Shown here in pieces: positions 7,114 through 64,000 of a stretch of DNA of 64,000 nucleotides. The DNA is from Siphonodentalium dalli (Eukaryota; Mollusca; Scaphopoda; Gadilida; Siphonodentaliidae), in the NCBI GenBank assembly GCA_032622095.1, contig CP136063.1, forward strand, positions 74,005,980 through 74,069,979, read 5' to 3'. The position numbers were made by a program, and so were the translations under genes. The notes below the pieces were generated by a model. The model was not told the origin of the DNA, ran no database searches, and saw only the letters and a list, made by a program, of their open reading frames with translations. How positions within the stretch are numbered: the first letter of the stretch is position 1; every line of letters begins with the position of its first letter.

Positions 7114-7740
7114 GCCGATCACGATCGGCAGATGTTTAACCCATCCCTTTGCGATAGTAAATTGTTAAGATCAGAATCATAATCTTTTAATGTTGAATTA
7201 TAGAGTATACTGTTATGATCTAAAGTAGTATATGACAAATGTACATAATAACCAGTAATAACACAAATTATTGGAATGTATGAGTCAATATAGAAGGGTT
7301 AATATAACATCTAAACTCTAGAGCCTGTCACCACTATCATAGTGTGAGCAGTTCTATTCATGTTGTTGCAAATTGCCATGTGAGATATCAAAATAATATA
7401 ATTATTTATTTAATGGAAAAGGTTAAAAGACATGGAATGGGTAAAAGGGGTTAAATCACCTATCTCTGCCCTGTTTGATCCAATGTAGTCCCATCATCCA
7501 AGGACTTAGAGAGCTCCATTGGTCTAGTTAAATAAATTCACCTGGCTAAGTTCTGGTTAAACAGATAGCTAAATCAATTTATCCAATAATTCACTGTGTC
7601 TCTTATACAGACCTAACATATGAGGGCTATAAATAACTCTCAAAGCAATAAACTATATTGTCTTTTATCTTGCTCACAGAGAAGCAGGTATTCATTAATT
7701 GTAAGTTACTTGGGTTATAATCTGGATAATTCTTAGTTTA
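7114..7740. other. No gene seen
   Basis: A+T-rich sequence. A GGGTTAAATCACC phrase followed by CAAGGACTTAGAGAGCTCC near 7450-7520 looks like part of an interspersed repeat, but no second copy was located. Nothing else was identified. Confidence 0.35.
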
Positions 7741-8453
7741 AAAAGGGCCATATCTCTGGTATAACAAATTGGATCTAACCCATATTCAAACTCGTTCTGT
7801 ATTTTGAGTTGAGAAACTCACATACCAAATTTGGTTCCTATCAGATGAAAAATGGTTGATTTATCGAAGTACATGTATGTGTGAATCATATGTCAAAGGA
7901 CCATAACACCATTAAAAAAAATCCGATCAAACCCATATTCGAAATCAATCTGTATGTTGGTCTGAGAAACTCATACACCAAATTTGGTTCCAATCAGATA
8001 AAAAATGTTTGAGTTATGGCAGAATTCATGAATTCTAAGTCGAAAAAGGGCCATAACTCCGTAAAAAAAACTCCGATCAAACCCATATTCGAACTCGATC
8101 TGTATTTTGGGTCGAGAAACTCACATACCAAATTTGGTTCCGATCAGATAAAAAATGTTTGAGTTATGGCAGAATTCATTAATTCTAAGTCGAAAAAGGG
8201 CCATAACTCCTTAATAAAAAGTCGGATCAAACCCATATTCGAACTTGATCTGTATTTTGGGCCGAGAAACTCACATACCAAATTTGGTTTTGATCAGGTA
8301 AAAAATGTTTGAGTTATCGCATTACACGTAAAGTGTCTACGGACGGACAGACAGACAGATGGACGGACAGACGGACGGACGGACGGACGCACGACGAGTG
8401 GTCAATCCGGACAACGACACTATGTTTACCATACATGGTATGGGTAAACATAA
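7741..8453. repeat. Tandem array of ~147-bp units ending in GGAC minisatellite and hairpin
   Basis: Four units start near 7741, 7898, 8045 and 8191. Each contains GGGCCATAACTCC (or a variant), ACCCATATTCGAA and ACATACCAAATTTGGTT. The last unit leads into a GGACGGACAGAC minisatellite (8338-8392), then a hairpin at about 8420-8452 (ATGTTTACC...GGTAAACAT). It has the same overall plan as 719-1300 but different unit sequence. Possibly a non-autonomous Helitron-like bivalve element. Confidence 0.65.
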
Positions 8454-9088
8454 AAATCATTACCATACTCTCAAGTGCCCAAAATAGTTTCAGCACGATT
8501 ATTAATTTTGGAGAAAATTCCCAACAATCACTATTAGTTTGGCATTGAGACAGAGTTATTGTGAACCTAACCTTCATACAAGTTTCATTTAGATCGGATA
8601 ACCCATGGCTGAGATATATGCGCAGATGCACAAATAACCTACATTTCCAGATAGATAAAGGAAAACGCTAGAATGGAAAATGTGGACAACATCATTTGTC
8701 CCTTTTTGAAAGCAGTCATGAATGATGGCGAATGTCCTGATACAATAACTGAAGGCTGATAGATACATGTATGCCCGGACAGGCGGACACAGTCATTCAA
8801 GTATCCCCCATTCTCTTTGAGATTGAGGGTATAATAAGCACAGCATTAGGAAAAATGTCCCACGGCAAATTTAGTGTTGTATCATTAGAGATTTCACATG
8901 TTGCTATAGCGTTTCCCACAGCAATACTCATTGGCCAATTTCAAGGACTGATAAGCAATAAGCCGGATGAGGAAAAAAAATCAAACGAAAGTTTATTTGT
9001 AACATGAGAGTATGAAATTCGATCTGTTATTTTATAAATATAATTTATCCACTGCTCACTACCTCTATTGCCTACATGAAGTCTGCCT
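8454..9088. other. No confident gene
   Basis: A 78-codon plus-strand frame (8771-9007) has no recognised motif, no signal or membrane segment and no visible splice context. A decayed tail of the preceding repeat continues to about 8640. Confidence 0.3.
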
Positions 9089-9359
9089 AATAGAGGAGCG
9101 GTCTTGACCAGAATTTTTTTTTTTTTAATTTTTTCTTTTACACACGGAAAAATTATATATCATATGAAAGTAGAAGATGTAGGCTTCATGTTCCGCCCTG
9201 CTGTAAAATGTGAAAGTGGTGCCGTTGCCATGGAAACAGAATGTAAACAATGTAGACACAGTTTGATATTAAACCATTTCCGCGAATGGTAAAAACTAAT
9301 TTAAGCCCATTCTAGGACAGGAACAGACGTTGAAGTTCATTTATTGAGGATTTGTCCAC

Positions 9360-10265
9360 TATAACTATGTTCCAACGATTCCAGTAGTAAATAGGATGCA
9401 CATATAGGTTATACGGGTCTTTATTGCCATTTTGGGGTGAAAAATGGTGATTTTTGCAAAAAATGCGATAATTTTGGAATTGGGACATTTATTGAATACT
9501 ACATTGGTTACAGTAATAATTTATGCATTATTATGATGGCATCATACGTGTACTTAAAATTAATTTGGATAAAACTGCCGAAAAGGCCCAACAACAAGAG
9601 AAATACCTGTTACCATGGAAACGATATTTAAAAATACAAAAAATGCCGTTATTGGAAAGAAATGAAGACCTATAACCCTTGCGACACAATATAACTTTTT
9701 GAAATTTGTTTTCTATGACCTGCACTTTTAATCCGGACTTCTGTGTTGGGTAATTGATGCGGTTTATTCAGCTGTTGTCATGGAAACGGACCAAATTTCG
9801 CCAAATAATGATGTTTTTTTTCCCATAGAGCTGACATTTAACGCATGTAATTTTATGAAGCAAAGCGTATTATGACAACCCGTTATAGATGTCTCAAAAC
9901 CTTTTTCAAAGATTACTATTTCCCAATTATCCCAGTAGTAGCTAGGATGCACATATAGGATATGAAGGTTTTATTGCCATTTTGGGGTAAAAACTGTTAA
10001 TTTTTGCAAAAATGCGATAATTTTGGAATTGAAACATTTATTTGATACTACATTGGTTACAGTAATAATTTATACACATTATGATGGCTTCTTACGTGTC
10101 CTTCAATCTAGTTTTGATAAAACTGCAGAAAAAGCCCAATACCCTGAGAAATACCTATCACCATGGAAACGATATTAAAAAATACACAAAATTTCATTAT
10201 TGGAAAGAAATGAAGTTCTATAACCATTGCGACACAAATTAACTTTTTGAATAATGAATAATGAT
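9360..10265. repeat. Tandem ~540-bp duplication inside the left foldback arm
   Basis: Two units (about 9360-9900 and 9900-10265, the second truncated) share CCATTTTGGGGT, GCGATAATTTTGGAATTG, GATACTACATTGGTTACAG-like and CCATGGAAACGATATT phrases. The mirrored pair occurs at about 13985-14880 in the right arm, so the duplication pre-dates formation of the inverted structure or was copied with it. Confidence 0.75.
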
Positions 10266-10389
10266 GTTTTCCCCTATAAACCGGACATTTAAATTGTGCA
10301 TGATTAAAATGGGTCAGGTAGTGTGATAATAGTGAGGATTGCTATGCAAATGCGGTGATATGGTACGCCATAGCTGCCTTATGTCAAGT

Positions 10390-11043
10390 TCAGGCAATAT
10401 ATCCGGTTAATATATCAATATATGTGGTTAGTTATTCAATAGATGCAGCCTCTTTGCAATTATATTTGGCTACTTTGTCAATATTGGAGGTTAGTTAGTC
10501 AATATATGCAGCTATGTTTCCAATATATGTGGTTAGTTGGTCAATATATGTAGCAAATTAGTCAATATATGCGGTTAGTTAGTCAATATATGTCGTTAGT
10601 TAGTCATTATATGCAGTTACTTAGTCAAGATATGTGTCAGTTAGTCATGATATGCAGCTACTTAGTCAATATATGTGGTCAGTTAGTCATTATATGCAGC
10701 TACTTAGTCAATATATGCAGTTAGTTAGTCATTATATGCAGCTACTTAGTCAATAAATGTGGTTAGTTAGTCATTATGTGTAGATAATTAGTCAATATAT
10801 GTGGCTAGTTAGTCATAATATGCAGTTTCTTTGTCAATAAATGTGGTCAGTTAGTCAATATATACATCTACTTTGTCAAAATGTGCAATTGCATTGACAA
10901 TATATCCAGCTAATTTATCAAAATATATGGTTAGTTGGTCATTATATGCAGCTACTTGGTCAATAGGTGTGGTTAGTTAGTCATTATGTGTAGATATTTA
11001 GTCAATAAATGCGGTTAGTTAGTCAATATATGCATCTACTTTG
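10390..11043 (+). repeat. 21/42-bp satellite, left block
   Basis: Repeated phrases are TTAGTCATTATATGCAGCTAC and TTAGTCAATATATGTGGTTAG, alternating at about 21 bp, so 42 bp makes a higher-order unit. Units are more divergent than in the right block. Orientation flips at the quasi-palindrome around 11036-11056. Confidence 0.85.
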
Positions 11044-13395
11044 TCTAAGTAGCTGCATATAATGACAAACTGACCACATATATTACAAAGTAGCTGCATA
11101 TAATGACTATCTAACCTCATATATTGACTAAGTAGCAAAATATAATGACTAACTGATCACATATATTGACTAAGTAGTTGCATATAATGACCGACTAACA
11201 CATATATTGACAAAGAAACTGCATATCATGACTAACTAACCGCATATATTGACTAAGTAGCTGCATATAATAACTAACTAACTGCTTATATTGACTAAGT
11301 AACTGCATATTATGACTAACTAACTGCTTATATTGACTGAGTAACTGCATATAATGACTAACTAACCACACATGTTGACTAAGTATCTACACATAATGAC
11401 TAACTAACTGCTTATATTGACTAAGTAGCTGCATATAGTGACTAACTATCCGCATATATTGACAAAGTAGCTGCATATAATGACTATCTGACCACATATA
11501 TTGACTAAGTAGTTGCATATAATGACTAACTAACCGCATATATTGACCAAGTAGCTGCATATAATGACTAACTGACCAAATATTGACTAATTATTTGCAT
11601 ATAATGACTAAATGATCGCATATATTGACTAAGTAGATGAATATAATGACTAACTGACCACAAATATTGACTAAGTAGTTGCATATAATGACTAACTAAC
11701 CGCATATATTGACTAATTAGCTGCATATAATGACTAACTGATCGCATATATTGAATAATTAGCTGCGTATAATGACTAACTGACCATATATATTGACTAA
11801 GTAGCTGCATATAATGACTAACTAACCGCATATATTGACTAAGTGGTTGCATATAATGTCTAACTGACCGCATATATTGACTAAGTAGCTGCATATAATG
11901 ACTAACTAACCGCATATATTGACTAAGTTGTTGCATATAATGACTAACTGATCGCATATATTGACTAATTAGCTGCATATAATGACTAACTGACCATATA
12001 TATTGACAAAGTGTTTGCATATAATGACTAACTAACCGCAATTATTGACCAAGTAGCTGCATATAATGACTAACTGACCGCATATATTGACTAAGTAGAT
12101 GAATATAATGACTAACTGACCACAAGTATTGACTAAGTAGTTGCATATAATGACTAACTAACCGCATATATTGACTAATTAGCTGCATATAATGACTACC
12201 TGATCGCATATATTGACTAATTAGCTGCATATAATGACTAACTGACCATATATATTGACTAAGTAGCTGCATATAATGACTAACTAACCGCATATATTGA
12301 CTAAGTGGTTGCATATAATGACTAACTGACCGCTTATATTGACTAATTAGCTGCATATAATGACTAACTGACCATATATATTGACTAAGTAGCTGCATAT
12401 AATGACTAACTAACCGCATATATTGACTAAGTTGTTGCATATAATGACTAACTGGCTGCATATATTGACTAATTAGCTGCATATAATGACTAACTGATTG
12501 CATATATTTACTAATTAGCTGCATATAATGACTAACTGATCGCATATATTGACTAATTAGCTGCATATAATAACTAACTGACCATATATATTGACTAAGT
12601 GGTTGCATATAATGACTAACTAACCGCATATATTGACTAATTGATTAAGTAGATGCATATAATGACTAACTGACCACAAATATTGACTAAGTAGTTGCAT
12701 ATAATGACTAACTAACAGCATATATTGACTAAGTAGCTGCATATAATGACTAACTTATCGCATATATTGACTAAGTAGCTGCATATAATGACTAACTGAC
12801 CACATATATTGACTAAGTAGTTGCATATAATGACTAACTAACCGCATATATTGACAATGTAGATGCCTATAATGACTAACTAACCACAAATATTGACTAA
12901 GTAGTTGCATATAATGACTAACTAACCACATATATTGACTAAGCAGCTGCAAACAATGACTAACTAATCATATATATATATATATATATTGATAAAGTAG
13001 CTGGATATATTGTCAATGCAATTGCACATTTTGGCAAAATATATGTATATATTGACTAACTTACCACATTTATTGACAAAGAAACTGCATATAATGACTA
13101 ACTAACCGAATATATTGACTAAATTGCTACATATATTGACTAACTAACCAAATTAATGGACAAAGTATTGACGAACTAACCACATATATTGGAAACGTAG
13201 CTGCATATATTTGCAAAGTAGCTGCATATATTGACTTAACTAACCACATATATTGACAAATTAGCTGCATATATTGACTAACTAACCTCCAATATTGACA
13301 AAGTAGCCACATATAATTGCAAAGAGGCTGCGTCTATTGACTAACTAACCACATATATTGATATATTAACCGGATATATTGCCTGAGCTTGACAT
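11044..13395 (-). repeat. 21/42-bp satellite, expanded right block
   Basis: About 2.35 kb of 42-bp units (CTGCATATAATGACTAACTG followed by ACCGCATATATTGACTAAGT and AG), each made of two related 21-bp halves. There are roughly 55 units. Because 42 is a multiple of three, one minus-strand frame stays open for 157 and 195 codons (11568-12041 and 12042-12629), reading as a 14-residue repeat. I regard this as a by-product of the period. A short TA microsatellite sits near 12970-12990. The block is about 1.7 kb longer than its left-hand mirror. Confidence 0.9.
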
Positions 13396-15173
13396 AAGGC
13401 AGCTATGGCGTACCATATCACCGCATTTGCATAGCAATCCTCACTATTATCACACTACATGACCCATTTTAACCATGCAGGTCTACATTTGACCCAAAGG
13501 GGTTCGGATGTGATATATTCCAGGAACTTGTTATGCCGTTATTCTGAGTAAGTACAGGTAATTACTATTTAGGGATGTAGCTTATAATCATCAACTATTT
13601 GCTTTCAAATCAGTTTCATAATCCCAGACAGCGAATCTGTTAAAATCCTATCATGGCATTTTCCAGTTACGTGGTGTTGGTTTTCAAACATACCCGTAAT
13701 ATTTTTTTGCAAAACACATCACTATTTAGACAATTTTCGTCTAGATCCACCGAAACAGCTGAGAAATTGGGAATAAAATGATCAAAACGCGTGGACTCTG
13801 AGTCTGATGAGTACCATGTCAGGGTGCGTTCACATAATGGTAAATTTGTCTGGCAAACCTGCAGGAAAGTCGTCTTAGGGGTGCTCTTATCCCCTATTGT
13901 ATTATATATATGAGTTGAAGATTTTGAGATACCTATAACAGGTTGTTACAATATGTTTTGCTTGATAAAATTCACAATTTAAATTTCCATCATTATTCAT
14001 TATTCAAAAAGTTAATTTGTGTCGCAATGGTTATAGAACTTCATTTCTTTCCAATAATGAAATTTTGTGTATTTTTTAATATCGTTTCCATGGTGATAGG
14101 TATTTCTCAGGGTATTGGGCTTTTTCTGCAGTTTTATCAAAACTAGATTGAAGGACACGTAAGAAGCCATCATAATATGTAAAAATTATTACTGTAACCA
14201 ATGTAGTATCAAATAAATGTTTCAATTCCAAAATTATCGCATTTTTTGCAAAAATTAACAGTTTTTACCCCAAAATGGCAATAAAACCTTCATATCCTAT
14301 ATGTGCATCCTAGCTACTACTGGGATAATTGGGAAATAGTAATCTTTGAAAAAGGTTTTGAGACATCTATAACGGGTTGTCATAATACGCTTTGCTTCAT
14401 AAAATTACATGCGTTAAATGTCAGCTCTATGGGGAAAAAACATCATTATTTGGCGAAATTTTGTCCGTTTCCATGACAACAGCTGAATAAACCGCATCAA
14501 TTACCCAACACAGAAGTCCGGATTAAAAGTGCATGTCATAAAAAACAAATTTCAAAAAGTTATATTGTGTCGCAAGGGTTATAGGTCTTCATTTCTTTCC
14601 AATAACGGCATTTTTTGTATTTTTAAATATCGTTTCCATGGTAACAGGTGTTTCTCTTGTTATTGGGCCTTTTCGGCAGCTTTATCCAAATTAATTTTAA
14701 GTACACGTATGATGCCATCATAATAATGCATAAATTATTACTGTAACCAATGTAGTATTCAATAAATGTCCCAATTCCAAAATTATCGCATTTTTTGCAA
14801 AAATCACCATTTTTCACCCCAAAATGGCAATAAAGACCCGTATAACCTATATGTGCATCCTATTTAATACTGGAATCGTTGGAACATAGTTTTAGTGGAC
14901 AAATCATCAATAAATTATCTTCAACGTCTGTTCCTGTCCTAGAATGGGCTTAAATTAGTTTTTACCATTTGCGGAAATGGTTTAATATCAAACTGTGTCT
15001 ACATTGGTTACATTCTGTTTCCATGGCAACGGCACCACTTTCACATTTTACAGCAGGGCGGAACATGAAGCCTACATCTTCTACTTTCATATGATGTATA
15101 ATTTTTCCGTGTGTAAAGAAAAAAATTAAACTCGAAAAATAAGCCCCGTTTGGGCCAAGACCGCTCATCTATA

Positions 15174-16236
15174 ATGAACGTTATGTTTATTACGTCAAAG
15201 TAGCTTTATTAGGTCAACGTAATTGCATATGCAAATTGAGCAGGTAACTAGGGAGGTCAACCGACCTGAATGACGTCATTGTGATTTTGGATCCTTTTTA
15301 TCGTCCATAATTCACCGCAATTGATACAAAATTCGTAATCAGGTATGTGTTTTCGCTCTAAAACATCTATAAACCATTAGCTAAAGGTCAGCTTAGAATA
15401 ACTATTAAAAAACCCAACGAACTATTTCACTCTAATCTGCACTCCGGTTTTGCCACGTCATGAATGCTAATTAGTTTGTTTGACCTAATAAATGTAAGGG
15501 CGTCATCGAAGTAACGAATGTAAAACTGAGGAAAATGACAGATTTACTGCAAAAAATGCATGCTTTGTGCGATGGATAAATAAAATATGTAGCTAATGTT
15601 GTCGCTAAAACTGTTTATGTCCGCTCGGGGGTTTTGGCATCTATTGGACCGATGTTAGTAGAATGCTACATTCCCACAGTTGGCATGGTGACTGTGTACA
15701 AACTTATCAGTTGCACGCACTCGAACAAGCCCATAATATGTCTTTATGTGCTCTGCTGCCTGTGCAACTTTATTGCATTATTTCCAACCACTGACCTTGA
15801 TGCATCACTTCGATATTGTTCGGCAGTTTCACTATTATTAATGCAGCCCTCTCAATTGTTTGGTAATCTGCTATGGCAACCCTTTGTCTTGACCCAGTTT
15901 GCTTCAACAAATGGCTTCGGCATTGCTGATTGCCATAGCCAATTATGAAGGATGTTAATGTCAGCCAAAAATTTGTCGATTTCCTGTTATTCACTAATAT
16001 ATATTGGTTGGCAGTTGAAAGCACCCAAAATATCCATTTCAACGCCAGTGTGCCCAACTCTTACCTTTTGGTCAATGCTTATTTTTTGCACTTTTTTGTT
16101 GATCTCATCGAAGGGTTGTAGAGTGGTAGTCCTTACATCACTACTGTGCCTCACACATCTACAATAATACAATAAAAGTTCATTTGACACTAAACTTGAT
16201 GTTCACAAGGGGTTCAAAGGTCATTTATTACTGTAT
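15174..16236. other. Region without a confident gene; contains an end fragment of family E
   Basis: Positions about 15645-15745 share GTAGAATGCTACATTCC and CGAACAAGCCCATAATATGTC with other copies of the repeat I call family E. Several overlapping open frames (15634-15948 plus; 15770-16057 and 15987-16190 minus) have no recognisable domain and I cannot decide whether they are a decayed gene. 15174-15600 holds nothing identified. Confidence 0.35.
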
Positions 16237-16926: not shown

Positions 16927-18450
16927 ATAAGTCAGAACTAAGGGCCATAACTCAGGTAAAATAAAGTTGGACAAACCTGGTTTTTGAACTAAATCAAGAT
17001 ATTGTTGTGAAATATACATACACCCTATATGAATGTAATCGATTGAAATTTGTTCAAGCTTTCGAACTAACATTTAACGGTCATTAAATTGCTAACAAGA
17101 GCTACGCTGGGCGTGCAATATACGCCCTCTCTTGGGTCGGCGGAAACTGGTAAAAAAGGGGCATAACTCTGGTAAAAAATGGCGGACGGAACTCAAATTT
17201 GAACTTGACCTGTGTTTTGGTGGGAGAAAGTAATATACCAAATTATCATTGAATCCGATAAGCTCTAGTAAAGTTATCATCCGGACAACAAATTTCAGGG
17301 ATTTTCTAAGTCAAATTACGTCAAATAAGGGGCATAACTCCGGTGAAAATTGGCGGACGGAACCCAAATTCGAACTTGATCTGTCTTTTCTCCTAATAAA
17401 CCCACATACCAAATTTGATTGAAATCGGTTCACTCTAACTAAAGTTATCATCCGGACAACAAATTTCAGGGATTTTCTAAGTCAAATTACGTCAAAAAAG
17501 GGGCCATAACTCTCGCAAAAATTATCGGATTAAAACGAAATTCGGACTTGAGCTGTATTTTGATATATGTAATCCACAAAAAAACGGGTTTTGCGTATAA
17601 ACATTCCAAAATCGAGTTATCATCAGGAAACCAAAAAACATAAGAAAAACTGAATTTTCTGAGTCGAAAAAGGGGCATAACTCTGCCAAAAATGGTCGGA
17701 CAGAACCCAAGTTCGAACTTGACCTGTGTTTTGGTGAAAGAAAGTAATATACCAAATTTGGATTCATTCCGATAAACTATACTAAAGTTATCATCCGGAC
17801 AACAAATTTCAAGGATTTTCTAAGTCAAAAAACGTTAAATAAGGGGCATAACTCCGGTGAAAATTGGCGGGCGGAACCCAAATTCGAACTTGAACTTACT
17901 TTTCGGCTAATAAACCCACATACCAAATTTTACTAATTTTGGTTCACTCTAACTAAAGTTATCATCCGGACAACAGGTTAACGGACGGACGGACGCCCGG
18001 CTCGACGGACCAATACTATAATACGGCCTTTTTTTCAAAAGGGCGTTTAAAAATAGATAAACTAAAGGCTGTAACAGATCAAATAAATCGGACAAACCTG
18101 TTTTTTTAACTTGATCATAATTTTGTGATAGGTCCACAGATCAAACATAAATGTAATCGTTGACATTTGTTCAAGTTTTTGGACGAACAGTCATAAAATT
18201 GCTAAAAATAGACAAACTTTAATAGGGCCATAACTGCGGCAAAAGAATAGGACAAATCTGGTTTTTGAACTCCTTCGAGATATTGTCGTGAAAGATCCAT
18301 ATGTAGATGTTTCTACAATTTATCGCACTAACAAACCTAAAATTGCTAAAAAATATAGATGGACAACTACTAGTAAGGGCCGTAACTCATGTGAAAATAA
18401 GAGGACAAACCTGGTTTTCGAACTCGATTGAGATATTTTTATGAGCGATG
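16927..18450. repeat. Nested pair of ~170-bp tandem-repeat elements
   Basis: An outer array (16927-17096, resuming at about 18048-18450) has units with GGGCCATAACT and AGGACAAACCTGG. It is interrupted by an inner array (17097-18047) of five units with GGGGCATAACTC and GTTATCATCCGGACAAC. The inner element begins AGAGCTACGCTGGGCGTG and ends with GGACGGACGGACG, CCAATACTATAATACGG and a hairpin around GCC...GGGC. The outer sequence reads through if the inner one is removed (TTGCTAA joined to AAATAGATA). Confidence 0.65.
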
Positions 18451-29936: not shown

Positions 29937-30152
29937 TACAGTAATGCTCTAAGTAATCGACTTCTTAACCACAGCAGAATTATGGGTAACTTTTCAGGAT
30001 TTAGTGGGAAATATGCTTGTTGCCATTCATCGGAAAGCTCTCGGCGAGAGCTTTTCGATGAATGGCAACAAGCCATATTTCCCACTAAATCCTGAAAAGT
30101 TACCCATAATTCTGCTGTGGTTAAGAAGTCGATTAATTAGGGCATTAATGTA
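29937..30152. mobile_element. Palindromic TA-flanked MITE, family R, copy 2
   Basis: Element 29939-30150 (212 bp) with TA on both sides. The body is nearly identical to 2272-2484, including CAGAATTATGGGTAACTTTT and the central CTCTCGGCGAGAG. Confidence 0.85.
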
Positions 30153-36202: not shown

Positions 36203-36884
36203 CCATTCTGCACATTGCTACGGCAATCTTATATTGAACTTTCATTGAGAGTTCATGAGAGTGTCAAGCTTCACCATCTTCAAACTTATAGCACTTTAAC
36301 AATGGAAGGTTTTGTTATTATAAGTACGTGTCATCAGTGTCACGTAAAAGAATAACGTGTAATCGATTGGTTTACTTCTGGTCAGATTCATCACCGCCCT
36401 TCTCGGTTACCTTGTTTTATTCCTCTGAAACGGAACAAGGCAACCACATCACGTATACAATTAGTCTAGTGTGCCCTAAATATAGTTTGTGTTTCTTTAA
36501 TTTCCGATTCGCGTTCAAGTCTGGAACAGAATTTATATGGCATATACTTAAAGATGTATTCAGGGTTATTGATATCGTGTAAACACTCTTGCTTGATAAG
36601 CACCATAATGCATAACATACGTTTGTGTTGGGGAAAATAATCAGTCAAGTCTATAACTAATGTTATTTAGTGGAATACTATAGGGACCATTAAATGGAAA
36701 AAAAAATTCAGGTCACCCATAGCATGCAGTTGGGGCAGTATATGAGGCCTAAGCAGGATGAGGTCCCCAGAGGGTGAATCTTCGGTTTCGCCTACCAGTA
36801 GGTCCAACCAGATCTTAGTTTAAATTTATTGTCCCTATATCGTCTTTGTATAATGTTTTGTGATAAGAATTTACCGCGACATTA
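36203..36884. other. No gene seen
   Basis: Upstream flank of the PAN/IgGFc-BP gene. A fragment at 36757-36780 (GAGGTCCCCAGAGGGTGAAT) matches the arm of the palindrome at 44797-44909. Confidence 0.4.
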
Positions 36885-37099
36885 TAGTAATGCCCAAAGT
36901 AATTGACCACTTAACCACAGCAGAATTATGGGTAATTTTTCAGGATTTATTCGGAAATACGGCTTGTTGCCATTCATCGGAAAGCTCTCGCCGAGAGCTT
37001 TCCGGTGAATTGCAACAAGCCATATTTCCGACTAAATCCTGAAAAATTACCCGTAATTCTGCTGTGGTTAAGTGGTCAATTACTTTGGGCATTACTGTA
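36883..37099. mobile_element. Palindromic TA-flanked MITE, family R, copy 3
   Basis: Element 36885-37097 (213 bp) with TA on both sides. The first base is T instead of C. Same palindromic body, with CTTAACCACAGCAGAATTAT and the central CTCTCGCCGAGAG. Confidence 0.85.
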
Positions 37100-38510: not shown

Positions 38511-39078
38511 GCATCTTCCGCTCAGATGATCGGCATCCACAAAGAGGTAATAGGATGTCTCTAACAGCTAAATTTATACTTGTGATGCCTTTTTCGTCAC
38601 GGAGATTGAAAAGATGTCGGAGAGGCATGTTAGTATTTACTGTCAATTTTAATACATGTACATGGTCGCATTAGTGTGGGTGATACATATACTTACGGTA
38701 CGGTGGCGAATCACGTGGTTTCGAGGTTGGTGAGTATATATGCCACGCAAAATGGACGAGGCTATAGGGCAAACGCACAAAAACATAATTTATGAGGAAC
38801 TGACACAAAACACAGCATATTGACTGTTACGAGCTTATGCTAGTTTATCTTTAAAACAAGTTGATACCTTATTTGTTCCGAAATACTCGGAAGTTTTTTA
38901 TAACATTCTGATCAAAGTTGCCAGTCGGAGGAACGTGGAATACACCACACATAGCCTACATCTAGGATAATCCTTCTACGGACATCTTTGGTCAGAATGT
39001 TAGAGCAAACAACTGTGAGTTTGGACACAAATTAGGTATCTGCTTGTTTCACAAATAGTATAGCATATATGCCCGTAA
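38511..39078. other. No gene seen
   Basis: No recognised frame or repeat between the minisatellite and the next element. Confidence 0.35.
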
Positions 39079-39469
39079 CCCTTTACCCAACAGAAGGGCC
39101 CTGTGGCAATGCATTCTCTTATATATGCGAGTCGACCATAGGTCGCCTCGCATATATAAGAGAAAGCATTGGCTTAACACATTAAAAATTATAAAATTGT
39201 TAAAGAATGTAAGAAAAAATGGTAAAAAGTGTTAAAACAAAGATTTTTTTAGGCCAATGCATTCTCTTATATATGCGAGGCGACCTATGGTCGACTCGCA
39301 TATATAAGAGAATGCATTGCCACAGGGCATAACTGTAACTATCACAATGTGGTCAAGTAGCCGGTTCCAATGATATCCATATTTGTATGGTTCTATTGAG
39401 ACAGACCGAAGATATTTTAGGCTGTTGAAGCTTTATTTGGCCGGTTTTGGCCGTTTTGTTGTTAAAGGG
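39075..39469. mobile_element. TTAA-type MITE (CCCTTTACCCAACA ends) with two hairpin modules
   Basis: Element 39079-39469. The left end CCCTTTACCCAACAGAAGGG follows GTAA, a decayed TTAA. The right end TTGTTGTTAAAGGG is mutated. Two hairpin modules (about 39105-39175 and 39253-39325) flank an A/T-rich spacer. A tail follows with CACAATGTGGTCAAG and GGCCGGTTTTGGCCGTTTTG. It is the reverse orientation of 45344-45725. Confidence 0.75.
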
Positions 39470-40196
39470 TTTTAACTGCCAAAATACTGCGTAATATATT
39501 GTTATCCTAGTTTATTACCATTTTCCTCGTTTCATGTCGAGCTTTAGATCGCCTGTGGCATTTTGAATGCGTGATACTCATCCAATCGAAACCACGCGAT
39601 TCCCCAGCGTGGTACTACTCATCAAGACAGCATAGTTGCAAACGAAAACGATTGTATATATGTTGGCGAGCTTCCTCTCAGAACTTGGGAACTCTTCTAC
39701 CAAGATATAACAATCTTCCTCCAAGATGAACAGCAGACGAATTCTTGAACATGTATTTGCTCTAGGTGTAACTTAAAATAAACTCGCTGTTTCAGGGCCC
39801 ATATACTTATATATACTTAGTTTATTGCGAAGCCCGGAAATTGCATGCATGGCAATATTTCGCTCAGCTATCTTGTTTTTTTTTATTTCCACCATATAGT
39901 TTGCCCAAGGGTATATTAATTAACATAATTTTAATTACCTTCTTCGGCAATGCTGTATGGAATAAAATGTTCTTGAACATTAGTATGGTTTAAAATGTCG
40001 ACAATCAGGTGTAGGTTGTGTGTGGGTCGGTGATATGTTGGCACTGAGAACTACTGGCACGCGTACGGTTGTTTCATGAGATTAGGTAGCCCATGCAGGC
40101 GTCCTCGGGCTCGGTATTCTAGGGGATGCTGGCGACACAAGTTGTCTCAATAACAAACGATCCATAAGAATAACGACAGTGTGATTTAAAGACATA
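39470..40196. other. No gene seen
   Basis: No recognised frame, repeat array or element ends. Confidence 0.35.
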
Positions 40197-45339: not shown

Positions 45340-45729
45340 TTAACCCTTTACCCAACAAAACGGCCAAAACCGGCCAAATAAAGCTTCAACAGCCTAAAAT
45401 ATCTTCGGTCTGTCTCAATAGAACCATACAAATATGGATATCATTGGAACCGGCTCCTTGACCACATTGTGATAGTTACGGTTATGCCCTGTGCCAATGC
45501 GTTCTCTTATATATGCGAGTCGACCATATTATAGGTCGCCTCGCATATATAAGAGAATGCATTGGCCTTTTTACCTTTTTACCATTTTTTCTTACATTCT
45601 TTAACAATTTTATAATTTTTAATGTGTTAAGCCAATGCATTCTCTTATATATGCGAGGCGACCTATGGTCGACTCGCATATGTAAGAGAATGCATTGACA
45701 CAGGGCCCTTCTGTTGGGTAAAGGGTTAA
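45340..45729. mobile_element. TTAA-flanked MITE (CCCTTTACCCAACA ends), intact, two hairpin modules
   Basis: Element 45344-45725 (382 bp) between TTAA at 45340-45343 and 45726-45729. Ends are CCCTTTACCCAACAAAACGG and CCTTCTGTTGGGTAAAGGG. It contains hairpin modules at about 45490-45565 and 45632-45707, with a T-rich spacer between. The best-preserved representative, used here as the reference for this family. No coding capacity. Confidence 0.85.
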
Positions 45730-47376: not shown

Positions 47377-47844
47377 TATATGTGACCCGCCATATAAAAT
47401 CCAGTCGTAAGTCGGGATCTTTTTTACCCTGTGCCAATGCATTCTCTTATATATACGAGTCGACCATATGTCGCCTCGCATATATAAGAGAATGCATTGG
47501 CCTAACAATGTTTTGTCATTTTTTTTAAATAAATGTTTCTTACAATTTTTAGGACATAAAATAAAACACATCCATTACCCTGCAGGGAGCCCCACACATA
47601 TATAGAAGCATATAGAAGCGTGTCGTCTGCTCATGTTTGTCTGGGGCTCTGTATGGGTGAAATTAAAAAATTGTTAAAGAATACAAGAAAAAATTATTAA
47701 AATTGTAAAAAATTGTTAGGCCAATGCATTCTCTTATATATGCGAGGCGACCTATGGTCGACTCGCATATATAAGAGAATGCATTGGCACAGGGTAAAAA
47801 AAATCCCGACTTACGACTGGATTTGATATGGCGGGTCACATATA
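47377..47844. mobile_element. TA-flanked MITE (TATGTGACCCGCC ends) with two hairpin modules, copy 1
   Basis: Element 47379-47842 (464 bp), TA on both sides. Ends are TATGTGACCCGCCATATAAA and its complement, running on through CCAGTCGTAAGTCGGGAT, a T-run and the hairpin module. Both ends carry a module (about 47435-47505, 47715-47795). The centre holds a GGGAGCCCC...GGGGCTC hairpin. The second copy at 63024-63488 is in opposite orientation. Confidence 0.8.
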
Positions 47845-49128
47845 TGTGCCAATGTTCATGCTTTTATCCAAATTTGCACACCCTCATCAGCTAACAACCC
47901 CTACTATTGAGGCCACTATTCGTTTGCAACAAATCACACCCAGCGTTACACAGCAATTATCAACAAATTGTAGTTGAACTATATCATGTATATAGCATTG
48001 GACACGATGTCGCGCCATTTCGTATGGATATAATATTTTTCATTCTAAATGTATCCATACTACATGTTGTAGCTGCACACTTGAATAACATTTATTTACG
48101 ATATATCCTGATATATACTTAATGACCCGTGTCGACTTTAAGTCCTCAATATTTTCTCTGTTGTTGCCTTGTCGCAACCCTTTCCGGAGATAAATATAGG
48201 TCGACGAATACATTAAACATTTTATACTGACTATTTCACAGAAACACTTATCCAAATCATAGCTTTTTGAAAAGTATAGGGTCCCGATTTCGCTCCAATG
48301 TGAGACAATATAACGAGCTCTGTGTTAGTATATTCCTTATATAAGTTATATGGTGAAATATTTCAGTATATTTCCTGTGCGAAAACATTTTAAAAGCCGG
48401 AAAATTTCTACGACCGCGCAAGAATTTATTTATCGGCCCACGTTCCAAATTACGCAATCATAATTTGGAGGTTCGTATGACTCATGTGCGTTTAAATGAG
48501 GCTTCACAAAATCGCAGATATCGGACACCGACCGGTGGAAATTCCAAGGTGTTCACACCCCAACGCAGACGACATGTCCCTGATCTATGAATTTCGATGA
48601 AATGTTAATCTAATATCGGTACGTATCATGGTGTCATGCATGAACACCGATCTTTCATGCCATGTTTATATTCGAAGGTCATCACCTGTATTGAGACTAA
48701 AATTAACAATTCATATGAGATTTTCTGGTCCGCGATTGATTGGTCTATAAAGGCAATAGTATTGGGGCATGTCGTCGAATAACTTATATAGGTGCATGTG
48801 GCTGTCTGTACACGTGGTTCTAAATATCAAGTCATTCGCGCGTGTTGCAAGTGAATTTTTATCATGCGTTGATGGAAGCTGTATACTCATAATTGGTGTC
48901 TAAAAGTTGGTTAAGGGGTTTACTTGTTCATAAATTCGCAATCCAGGTACGTACCTCGCATGTGTTTGCAGTTTTATGTTATTTGTCTGTTTTATATATA
49001 TACATGTAGGTTTGTAAAGCTATATTGAGTACCCTAATGGTTATCCGGCGTTTCCCAGGTTAAAGTGATGTGGAACTAAAACAATATGTTTCGTTCTCTT
49101 CGTTTTCCAGCTTCTATATAGGTGAATC
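47845..49128. other. No confident gene
   Basis: Small frames at 47907-48122 and 48040-48457 are unrecognised. A fragment near 48726-48750 matches an end of the element at 29112-29696. Confidence 0.35.
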
Positions 49129-51970: not shown

Positions 51971-52152
51971 TACAGTAATGCTCTAATTAATCGACCTCTT
52001 AACCACAGCAGAATTATGGATAACTTTTCAGGATTTAGTCGGAAATATGGCTTGTTGCCAACAAGCCATATTTTCGAGTCCCGACTACATCCTGAAAAGT
52101 TACCCATATTTCTGCTGTGGTTAAGAAGTCGATTACTTAGAGCATTACTGTA
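51971..52152. mobile_element. Palindromic TA-flanked MITE, family R, copy 4 (centre deleted)
   Basis: Element 51973-52150 (178 bp), TA both sides. The arms are intact at the ends, but the central GAAAGCTCTCG portion is missing and about 5 bases are inserted near 52075. Confidence 0.8.
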
Positions 52153-61133: not shown

Positions 61134-61508
61134 TTAACCCTTTACCAAACAAATAACACCATACAAATATGGATATCATTGGAACCGGTTCATTGACCAC
61201 ATTGTGATGGTTACAGTTATGCCCTGTGCCAATGCATTCTCTTATATATGCGATATATAAGAGAATGCATTGGCCTTTTTTTTAACACTTTTTACCATTT
61301 GTTCTTACATTCTTTAACAATTTTATAATTTTTTCTTACATTTTTTAACAATTTTTATAAACATTTTTCTACATTCTTTGACAATTTTATCATTTTTAAT
61401 ATGTGTTAAGCCAATGCATTCTCTTATATATGCGAGGCGACCTATGGTCGACTCGCATATATAAGAGAATGCATTGGCACAGGGCCGTTTTGTTGGGTAA
61501 AGGGTTAA
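61134..61508. mobile_element. TTAA-flanked hairpin-module MITE, one module collapsed
   Basis: Element 61138-61504 between TTAA at 61134-61137 and 61505-61508, family of 45344-45725. The left module has lost its central GAGTCGACC...CTCGC part (TATATGCGATATATAAGAGA), and the T-rich spacer is duplicated. It directly abuts a family T-like start (ATCCTTTCTATCTAAATGG) at 61509 that shares the TTAA. Confidence 0.8.
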
Positions 61509-62399: not shown

Positions 62400-62694
62400 G
62401 TAGCAAATATGGATATCATTGGAACCGGCTCCTTGACCACATTGTGATAGATCAGTTATGCCCTGTGCCAATGCATTCTCTTATATATGCGAGTCGACCA
62501 TAGGTCGCCTCGCATATATAAGAGAATGCATTGGCCTAAAAACACTTTTTACCATTTTTTCTTACATTCTTTAACAATTTTATAATTTTTAATGTGTTAA
62601 GCCAATGCATTCTCTTATATATGCGAGGCGACCTATGGTCGACTCGCATATATAAGAGAATGCATTGGCACAGGGCCGTTCTGTTGGGTAAAGG
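62400..62694. mobile_element. Hairpin-module MITE, left end missing
   Basis: Matches 45344-45725 from the ATGGATATCATTGGAACCGG phrase to CTGTTGGGTAAAGG. It has two intact modules but no left TTAA/CCCTTT end, and the right TTAA is replaced by AGCAAG. Truncated copy. Confidence 0.75.
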
Positions 62695-63021
62695 AGCAAG
62701 TTTGTAGCAAATTAGTGTAACACTATGCTAAAGTCTCTACATTCGAAACTGTGGGAGGAGTTTATCACACAAATGCAATGAAGGTAACCATGCATACTGT
62801 GACGGATACGAGCGGATGGAAGGACGGAGGCCATTTTCGGGGGCACAATAAAAAGTATACAGCAAACCTTTATGTTGTTCTGAAATACGCTAGTTTTTTT
62901 TATAATTCCGTACTACCAATGTTAACAATAGAACAGTATTTCATTTCACTTGAGACCATGCGATTCTTTACCGTGATCATGCATGTATGTCACGTGAATA
63001 ATGACCGTGATAATACATGTA
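62695..63021. other. No gene seen; repeat tail fragment
   Basis: About 62745-62835 resembles the tail of 58496-58860. A long plus frame (62751-63170) runs into the next MITE and is rejected as a gene. Confidence 0.35.
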
Positions 63022-63490
63022 TATATGTGACCCGCCATATCAAATCCAGTCGTAAGTCGGGATTTTTTTTTTACCCTGTGCCAATGCTTCTATTTTATAT
63101 GCGAGTCGACCATAGGTCGCCTCGCATATATAAGAGAATGCATTGGCCTAACAATTTTTTACAATTTTAATATTTTTTTCTTGTATTCTTTAACAATTTT
63201 ATAATTTCACCCATACAGAGCCCCAGACAAACATGAGCAGACGACACTCTTCTATATGCTTCTATATATGTGTGGGGCTCCCTGCAGGGTAATGGATGTT
63301 TTTTATTTTATTTCCTAAAAATTGTAAGAAACATTTATTTTTAAAAAATGATAAAAAATTGTTAGGCCAATGCATTCTCTTATATATGCGAGGCGACCTA
63401 TGGTCGACTCGCATATATAAGAGAATGCATTGGCACAGGGTAAAAAAAATCACGACTTACAACTGGATTTGATATGGCGGGTCACATATG
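63022..63490. mobile_element. TA-type MITE (TATGTGACCCGCC ends) with two hairpin modules, copy 2
   Basis: Element 63024-63488 (465 bp), TA on the left and TG on the right. Same ends, modules and central GGGGCTC/GAGCCCC hairpin as 47379-47842 but in opposite orientation. The left module carries a small deletion (TGCTTCTATTTTATATGCGA). Confidence 0.8.
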
Positions 63491-63845: not shown

Positions 63846-64000
63846 TTAACCCTTTACCCAACAGAACGGCCCTGTGCCAATGCATTCTCTTATATATGCG
63901 AGTCGACCACAGGTCGCCTCGCATATATAAGAGAATGCATTGGCTTAACACATATTAAAAATGATAAAATTGTCAAAGAATGTAGAAAAATATTATAAAA
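63846..64000. mobile_element. TTAA-flanked hairpin-module MITE, cut by window end
   Basis: TTAA at 63846-63849, then CCCTTTACCCAACAGAACGG, one complete hairpin module (about 63872-63945) and the start of the A-rich spacer. Confidence 0.8.

Follow-up and report, generated by a model that had tools for sequence, protein, structure and literature searches.

According to excerpts of PMC4079207, most described foldback transposons are assigned to the Mutator superfamily, with exceptions such as Galileo in the P superfamily, and foldbacks of Drosophila melanogaster and sea urchin are also mentioned. The same excerpts describe Tetris of Drosophila virilis as a non-autonomous foldback with three structurally complete copies and target-site duplications (TSDs) of 8 to 10 bp. 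Tetris and Galileo of Drosophila are the closest systems in print to the element described here, which lies in a 64,000-bp stretch of the scaphopod Siphonodentalium dalli (the window; C3:74005980-74069979), whose genome of 2.23 Gb in nine contigs was searched. We consider it very probable that this element is a non-autonomous cut-and-paste DNA transposon of the terminal inverted repeat (TIR) order with foldback architecture, and that it is one copy of a large family.

The original prediction, made from the letters of the window, had placed a 6-kb foldback at 9089..15173; the foldback is real, and its limits are corrected to 9091-15171 with a TAA on each side. The comparison with foldback elements was apt for the architecture, as long inverted arms make up most of the element, tandem repeats lie within the arms, and dispersed copies carry TSDs. 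The parts of the element are given below, with L-numbered handles denoting copies elsewhere in the genome.

9091-15171: complete element of 6,081 bp, exact limits, flanked on both sides by TAA.
9088..9090, no strand: left TSD, TAA, from the sequence and the 3-bp duplications in other copies.
9091..9106, plus strand: L-type TIR TAGAGGAGCGGTCTTG, followed by ACCAGAAT and a T tract.
9091..10302, plus strand: left outer arm, with two tandem units of about 549 bp (9361-9911 and 9912-10251).
9224, 9609, 9774, and 10157: four GTTNCCATGGAAAC-like boxes in the left arm.
10298..10299: deletion junction, with 495 bp lost; the lost segment is kept as 13478-13972 in the right arm.
10387..11045, plus strand: short satellite array, with 21 scored monomers of 21 bp arranged as a 42-bp higher-order unit.
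11030..11062: central strand-switch junction (hairpin), in the same orientation in 20 other young copies and reversed in L010 and L040.
11041..13361, minus strand: long satellite array, 86 scored monomers, including a block duplication.
13478..13972, minus strand: inner arm segment without a left-arm counterpart, whose first 55 bp or so continue a third copy of the 549-bp unit.
13988..15171, minus strand: right outer arm, with tandem units 14890-14341 and 14340-14003.
15017, 14632, 14467, and 14084: four boxes in the right arm, at the mirror sites of the left-arm boxes.
15128..15171, minus strand: R-type terminal region TAGATGAGCGGTCTTGGCC...GGGGCTTATTTTTCGAG, with GCCCAAACGGGGC in the window copy.
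15172..15174, no strand: right TSD, TAA, from the sequence and the 3-bp duplications in other copies.

The two arms are inverted copies of each other, as had been predicted, with 98.2% identity between 9124-10266 and 15130-13988 (1,144 alignment columns); from 9144-10265 the alignment holds 1,104 matches, 17 mismatches, and three gap columns. The 64 codons that had been noted to translate identically in both arms merely restate this DNA identity. Mirror symmetry extends into the satellite (10303-10500 versus 13475-13276; 192 matches, six mismatches, and two gap columns), whereas the outermost 53 bp of the arms diverge more (44 matches, nine mismatches, and 10 gap columns). The tandem duplication of about 540 bp that had been noticed in the arms corresponds to units of about 549 bp in each of them, with 85% identity between 9361-9703 and 9912-10251. 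Left and right copies of one unit are 98.5 to 99.4% identical, far closer than the first and second units are to each other (about 86%), and the tandem duplication is therefore older than the mirror symmetry. At up to one mismatch, every match to GTTNCCATGGAAAC in the window falls inside the element (10 listed matches at six places, on both strands, where 0.06 would be expected), and box-like sites are also present in three old copies whose arms were examined (L031, L032, and L034). The GTTRCCATGGAAAC boxes, regularly spaced in the arms, bear what we take to be a resemblance to RFX X-box sites.

The 16-bp end has 378 exact matches in the host genome, compared to zero for a reversed-pattern control. 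A search with a 512-bp left-arm query gave 918 candidates, and all 40 that were scored, including the window copy, were 97 to 100% identical over nearly the whole query and came from all nine contigs. We read 20 further copies of the same subfamily (L009-L028) and then 12 elements picked for odd length or end type. Arm sequence was present on the opposite side, in reverse orientation, in 19 of the 20 further copies, with L026 showing the left side only in its fetched stretch and the right arm being incomplete or extending past the fetched stretch in L013, L014, and L023. An exact 3-bp TSD flanks 26 of the 28 copies with both ends read (21 of 23, L028, and four of four), a count that omits L013, L014, L023, and L026, which have one end in the fetched stretch, and the interior piece L041; identity over 4 bp was found in none of 23 copies. 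The duplicated triplets are AT rich yet mixed: nine of 26 are TTA or TAA, and the other 17 are AAT, TAT, CCA, TGT, CAC, and so on. Short deletion forms of 0.68 to 2.2 kb also exist. In host contig C2, foldback ends form a run at 123.45-124.12 Mb, many of them paired about 6.1 to 6.7 kb apart and recurring every few tens of kilobases, apparently a large tandem segmental duplication carrying the element along.

The ends of the family fall into two types. L ends read TAGAGGAGCGGTCTTGACCAGAATTTTT and R ends TAGA(T/G)GAGCGGTCTTGGCCCCAACGGGGCTTATTTTTCGAG, the latter containing a GCCCCAACGGGGC hairpin in 21 of 27 cases, compared to GCCCAAACGGGGC in the window copy. Of 326 typed ends, the first 100 include 27 convergent pairs, most of them typed by one base only, and by that base 26 combine one L with one R end. 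The exception, L037, has an L-type interior (GGCCAGAATTTTT) with one changed base; therefore, all 27 listed pairs are counted as L/R.

The arms behind these ends have a different history. In the old subfamily, the two arms of one copy are 78 to 87% alike (L029, L032, L033, and L034; L031 was not compared), and in the young copies they are 97.3 to 99.0% alike in all 16 compared, including the window copy. In a tree of 48 arms, from which three were dropped because of insertions or short arms, a single clade (support 1.0) unites every young arm of either side with the old L arms, to the exclusion of the old R arms. Among the young copies, an L arm mostly clusters with L arms from elsewhere in the genome and an R arm with R arms. 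The tree makes the young R arm a derivative of the L-arm lineage, with its outer 45 bp or so still R-type; most simply, the founder of the young subfamily had its R arm overwritten by its own L arm inward of that stretch. As identity within copies is uniform and most L arms join those of other copies, homogenisation came before the young copies spread; and as young arms mostly group by side, apart from one sub-group, there has been no general homogenisation within copies since then. The high arm identity had been attributed to a recent origin or gene conversion of the window copy, an explanation that gives way to an event older than the spread.

Two features of the satellite core were anticipated correctly: the 21/42-bp satellite changes orientation near 11044, in a single flip at about 11041-11046, and the right array is about 3.5 times longer than the left. 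The flip region folds into a tight hairpin (z = -7.4, equalled by none of 200 shuffles). Within the long array, a block at about 11592-12180 is duplicated onto about 12054-12642 with a lag of 462 bp (11 x 42) and 98% identity in the best 200-bp window. The strand switch might be taken for a peculiarity of the window copy; it is instead one inherited junction. Among 28 young copies including that of the window, the satellite centre is missing from L035, L038, and L039 and the junction is unreadable in L014 and L026; of the 23 readable junctions, 21 show minor base differences and the standard orientation, and two (L010 and L040) are reversed relative to the L and R ends of their copies. In the 17 standard copies that were scored, there are 7 to 25 monomers on the left side and 23 to 98 on the right, with 23 misoriented monomers in L012, which has an internal duplication, and none in the remaining 16.

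The reversed copies have their longer array on the left, with 92 monomers on the left and 21 on the right in L010 and 48 and 24, respectively, in L040, where the reversal is judged from the junction and array sides alone. The outer arms of L010 align with those of other copies in plus orientation (97.7 to 99.5% over about 1.2 kb), whereas the best alignments of its core to other copies are in reverse (4.0 to 4.3 kb at 88 to 96%); in a control pair, L009 and L021, the core aligns in plus orientation. The core of L010 is thus inverted between its outer arms, the pattern that recombination between both arms of one element would give.

The arms also differ at their inner ends, where the original prediction gave the right arm about 480 extra base pairs. 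The asymmetry is real and amounts to 495 bp, but it does not reflect a gain on the right; the left arm lost the segment, as in L009, L012, and L021. In the left arm, TTGTG is joined straight to CATGATTAAAATGG, and 495 bp lie between the equivalent points in the right arm. The segment is present at least partly on both sides in 14 of the 20 further copies first fetched, while L009, L012, and L021 are without its left-arm copy, like the window copy, and L010 and L028 are without its right-arm copy; the right side of L026 was not seen in the fetched stretch.

The length of the TSD has implications for the superfamily to which the family belongs. Zator, Academ, and Chapaev3 elements have duplications of 3 to 4 bp, and membership in one of these groups is possible. 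Harbinger duplications follow a 3-bp TWA rule, and PIF/Harbinger membership, suggested by the TAA of the window copy alone, fits both the duplication length and the nine of 26 triplets that are TTA or TAA; with 17 of 26 duplications being other triplets, we regard it as very unlikely. A foldback of the Mutator or P superfamily, as in Drosophila and elsewhere, would share the same anatomy, namely a non-coding middle between long arms that contain tandem repeats (excerpts of PMC4079207 and PMC3688188). Assignment to either is very unlikely, and we do not file the element there because 26 of 28 copies have a duplication of 3 bp, extending to 4 bp in none of 23, compared to 8 to 10 bp in Tetris and 7 bp in Galileo; on length, this alternative is refuted unless such a transposase lies between TAGAKGAGCGGTCTTG ends. 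CACTA elements have ends that begin with CAC and duplications of 2 to 3 bp. EnSpm/CACTA was rejected, as the 26 duplications of 3 bp and two of 2 bp fit but the ends that were read begin with TAGA.

Helentrons and their HINE derivatives are not known to make a target duplication. It is highly improbable that the element is a satellite-carrying Helentron or HINE of the Pearl type of bivalves, in which tandem cores occur according to excerpts of PMC7492417 and of which the window holds three look-alikes. Those excerpts give the Pearl-type substructures as subterminal repeats, a microsatellite, and a one-sided 3' palindrome, whereas the present element has kilobase inverted arms and 3-bp duplications, without a one-sided hairpin and microsatellite plan, and the duplications refute this alternative.

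No transposase had been seen in the original prediction, and none was found in the 10 open reading frames (ORFs) scanned out of 41 in the window element (at least 45 amino acids [aa]), in seven ORFs of an 18.4-kb copy (L029 plus L030), or in five ORFs from the interiors of other copies. In the 18.4-kb copy there is a reverse transcriptase ORF, which we interpret as a nested insertion, and inside the 13.5-kb copy L041 a single ORF reaches 110 aa when satellite frames are disregarded, with no Pfam match. Inserts of about 5 and 7 kb lie within the satellite arrays of L014 and L041, respectively; one ORF of each was scanned, with no Pfam match. A 586-aa ORF at L031:5686-7443 encodes a Crypton-type tyrosine recombinase (DUF3504, E=8e-16; Phage_integrase, E=2.1e-6), and its position inside a copy raises the alternative that it is the family's own mobility enzyme. 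To our knowledge, Cryptons make no 3-bp duplications. The ORF splits the right arm and has about 121 bp of arm sequence directly repeated on either side of it; its DNA recurs at 96 to 100% identity in at least 40 scored genome places, and none of these other than the query's own lies at a foldback end in two listings of ends, each giving the first 100 places. The recombinase was therefore rejected as an independent nested repeat, and a role for it in moving the family is exceedingly doubtful.

Other candidate genes were also set aside. An ORF at 13670-13945 on the minus strand, in the segment missing from the left arm, has a weak Pfam match to Hisat_C (E=0.0011) below the cut-off, compared to 0.013 for the best of nine shuffles of the same ORF, and its best PDB match has E=0.18. 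It has 33 matches in L009-L028, 13 of full length (12 intact and gap-free and one broken) and 20 partial, and the 12 intact copies hold eight synonymous and 18 non-synonymous codon differences in total; with the match below cut-off and no sign of coding constraint, a captured gene was not accepted. A satellite frame at 12045-12644 on the minus strand that matches Focal_AT above the cut-off (E=1.3e-5) is read as a repeat artefact, and two repeat-built frames in L016 have weak ADGRF3_N matches below the cut-off (best E=9.6e-6). Arm and satellite strings had no match in the viral contig and genome contig collections scanned. Finally, an assembly artefact or one-off palindromic duplication, which the original prediction had kept in view along with a search for other copies of the outer ends and of which a long near-perfect palindrome such as that left by a missed adapter is a classic form, is refuted: the arm alignment ends at the element ends with differing flanks, indels are independent in each arm, hundreds of ends lie elsewhere, and other copies have their own duplications.

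Several points weigh against a cut-and-paste foldback transposon or soften its details. The flanks of L012 and L018, two of the 28 copies, match over 2 bp only. No autonomous partner was found among the copies examined, in which selected ORFs were scanned: those of L009-L028 that reach 130 aa were listed and sifted by visual inspection and location, a procedure that can overlook shorter exons. No movement was observed. The junctions of the short duplication-flanked forms L038, L036, and L033 are each single-copy genome-wide at up to two mismatches; therefore, the minimal mobile unit is undefined, the spread of short forms is unsupported, and we rejected these forms as self-moving mini-elements. 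Common ancestry, and not selection, could account in part for the pairing of L with R ends, in which case the count weighs less. In the sub-group of L019, L022, L024, L027, L028, and L036, L and R arms mix in the tree.

As no transposase was found in the ORFs scanned, we infer one that acts in trans on this non-autonomous transposon. Such an enzyme, encoded elsewhere, would recognise one L and one R end, cut with a 3-bp stagger, and move the whole palindrome. The end regions would stay distinct because the transposase would need polarity, leaving the remaining arm free to convert, and the satellite arrays would expand and contract by unequal exchange, of which the duplication with a 462-bp lag would be a visible case, having started from a single founding junction in the middle of the hairpin. 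A possible role of the repeated CCATGGAAAC boxes is to give the transposase further binding sites, a lead suggested by analogy with the repeats of Galileo in excerpts of PMC3688188. We tentatively propose a foldback lineage outside Mutator and P, with a 3-bp stagger and an obligatory polarity hidden in a near-perfect palindrome, in which the outer 45 bp or so never homogenise, unlike the kilobase arms, and the core is free to invert. The transposase would then tell a left end from a right one, with the arms and satellite acting as cargo that recombines or as additional binding sites. With its hundreds of ends and its 3-bp duplication, the family would show that the foldback plan arises in a further superfamily. 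Its copies can be set out as a natural series (standard, core-inverted, arm-converted, and satellite expanded or deleted) in which satellite turnover within a palindrome can be traced copy by copy, and the fixed L and R ends make a testable prediction about the transposase.

Elsewhere in the window are genes for a Cys-loop receptor subunit and an IgGFc-binding-type protein. Tandem repeats of 150 to 171 bp followed by degenerate ACGG microsatellites lie at 716-1244, 7728-8393, and 17152-17990 and resemble the Pearl/Cg_HINE Helentrons of bivalves, whose microsatellites are given as GTCC/GTCY in excerpts of PMC7492417. A nearly perfect palindromic miniature inverted-repeat transposable element (MITE) of about 217 bp, with ends TACAGTAATG or close to it and probably flanked by TA, has four copies about 87 to 96% alike (2270-2486, 29937-30152, 36883-37099, and 51971-52152, the last with a shortened centre). 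Mutually inverted repeats with a common core of about 80 bp, at 39076-39471, 45342-45728, 47378-47845, 61152-61508, 62404-62694, 63021-63489, and 63846-64000, are probably another MITE group.

Four strings taken from the ends do not occur in the literature searched, where we also found no paper uniting at least three of foldback transposon, 3-bp TSD, long terminal inverted repeats, CACTA, and Zator. FB of Drosophila melanogaster and TU of sea urchin have inverted arms partly made of short tandem repeats and a variable middle, as here; unlike the present family, they make duplications of 8 to 9 bp and their arms are themselves largely short repeats. The original prediction did not recognise the combination of foldback arms with a tandem duplication, but tandem repeats in long arms are described for both Tetris and Galileo in excerpts of PMC4079207, PMC3573991, and PMC3688188. 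Tetris shares with this family arms (up to 1.7 kb in Tetris) with internal tandem repeats and a non-coding middle, as well as a flanking domain of the arms, repeats that feed satellite-like arrays, and a shorter derivative, DAIBAM (excerpts of PMC4079207). It differs, in the same excerpts, in having repeats of about 220 bp in its arms rather than 549-bp arm units with a mirrored central 21/42-bp satellite, and in having three structurally complete copies rather than ends by the hundreds. Galileo likewise has long, internally repetitive arms with repeat numbers unequal between the arms of one copy, rearrangement between copies, and extra transposase-binding sites in its repeats, for which the present family has candidates only; however, it makes 7-bp duplications and has an identified P-type transposase, and no satellite core is described for it in the excerpts (PMC3688188 and PMC3573991). 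The Pearl/Cg_HINE Helentrons of oysters are also mobile carriers of satellite-like arrays but, as far as excerpts of PMC7492417 describe them, are of the rolling-circle type, without inverted kilobase arms and with other ends. The present family differs from the described foldbacks in its 3-bp duplication, its pairs of one L and one R end, and its inherited satellite strand switch.

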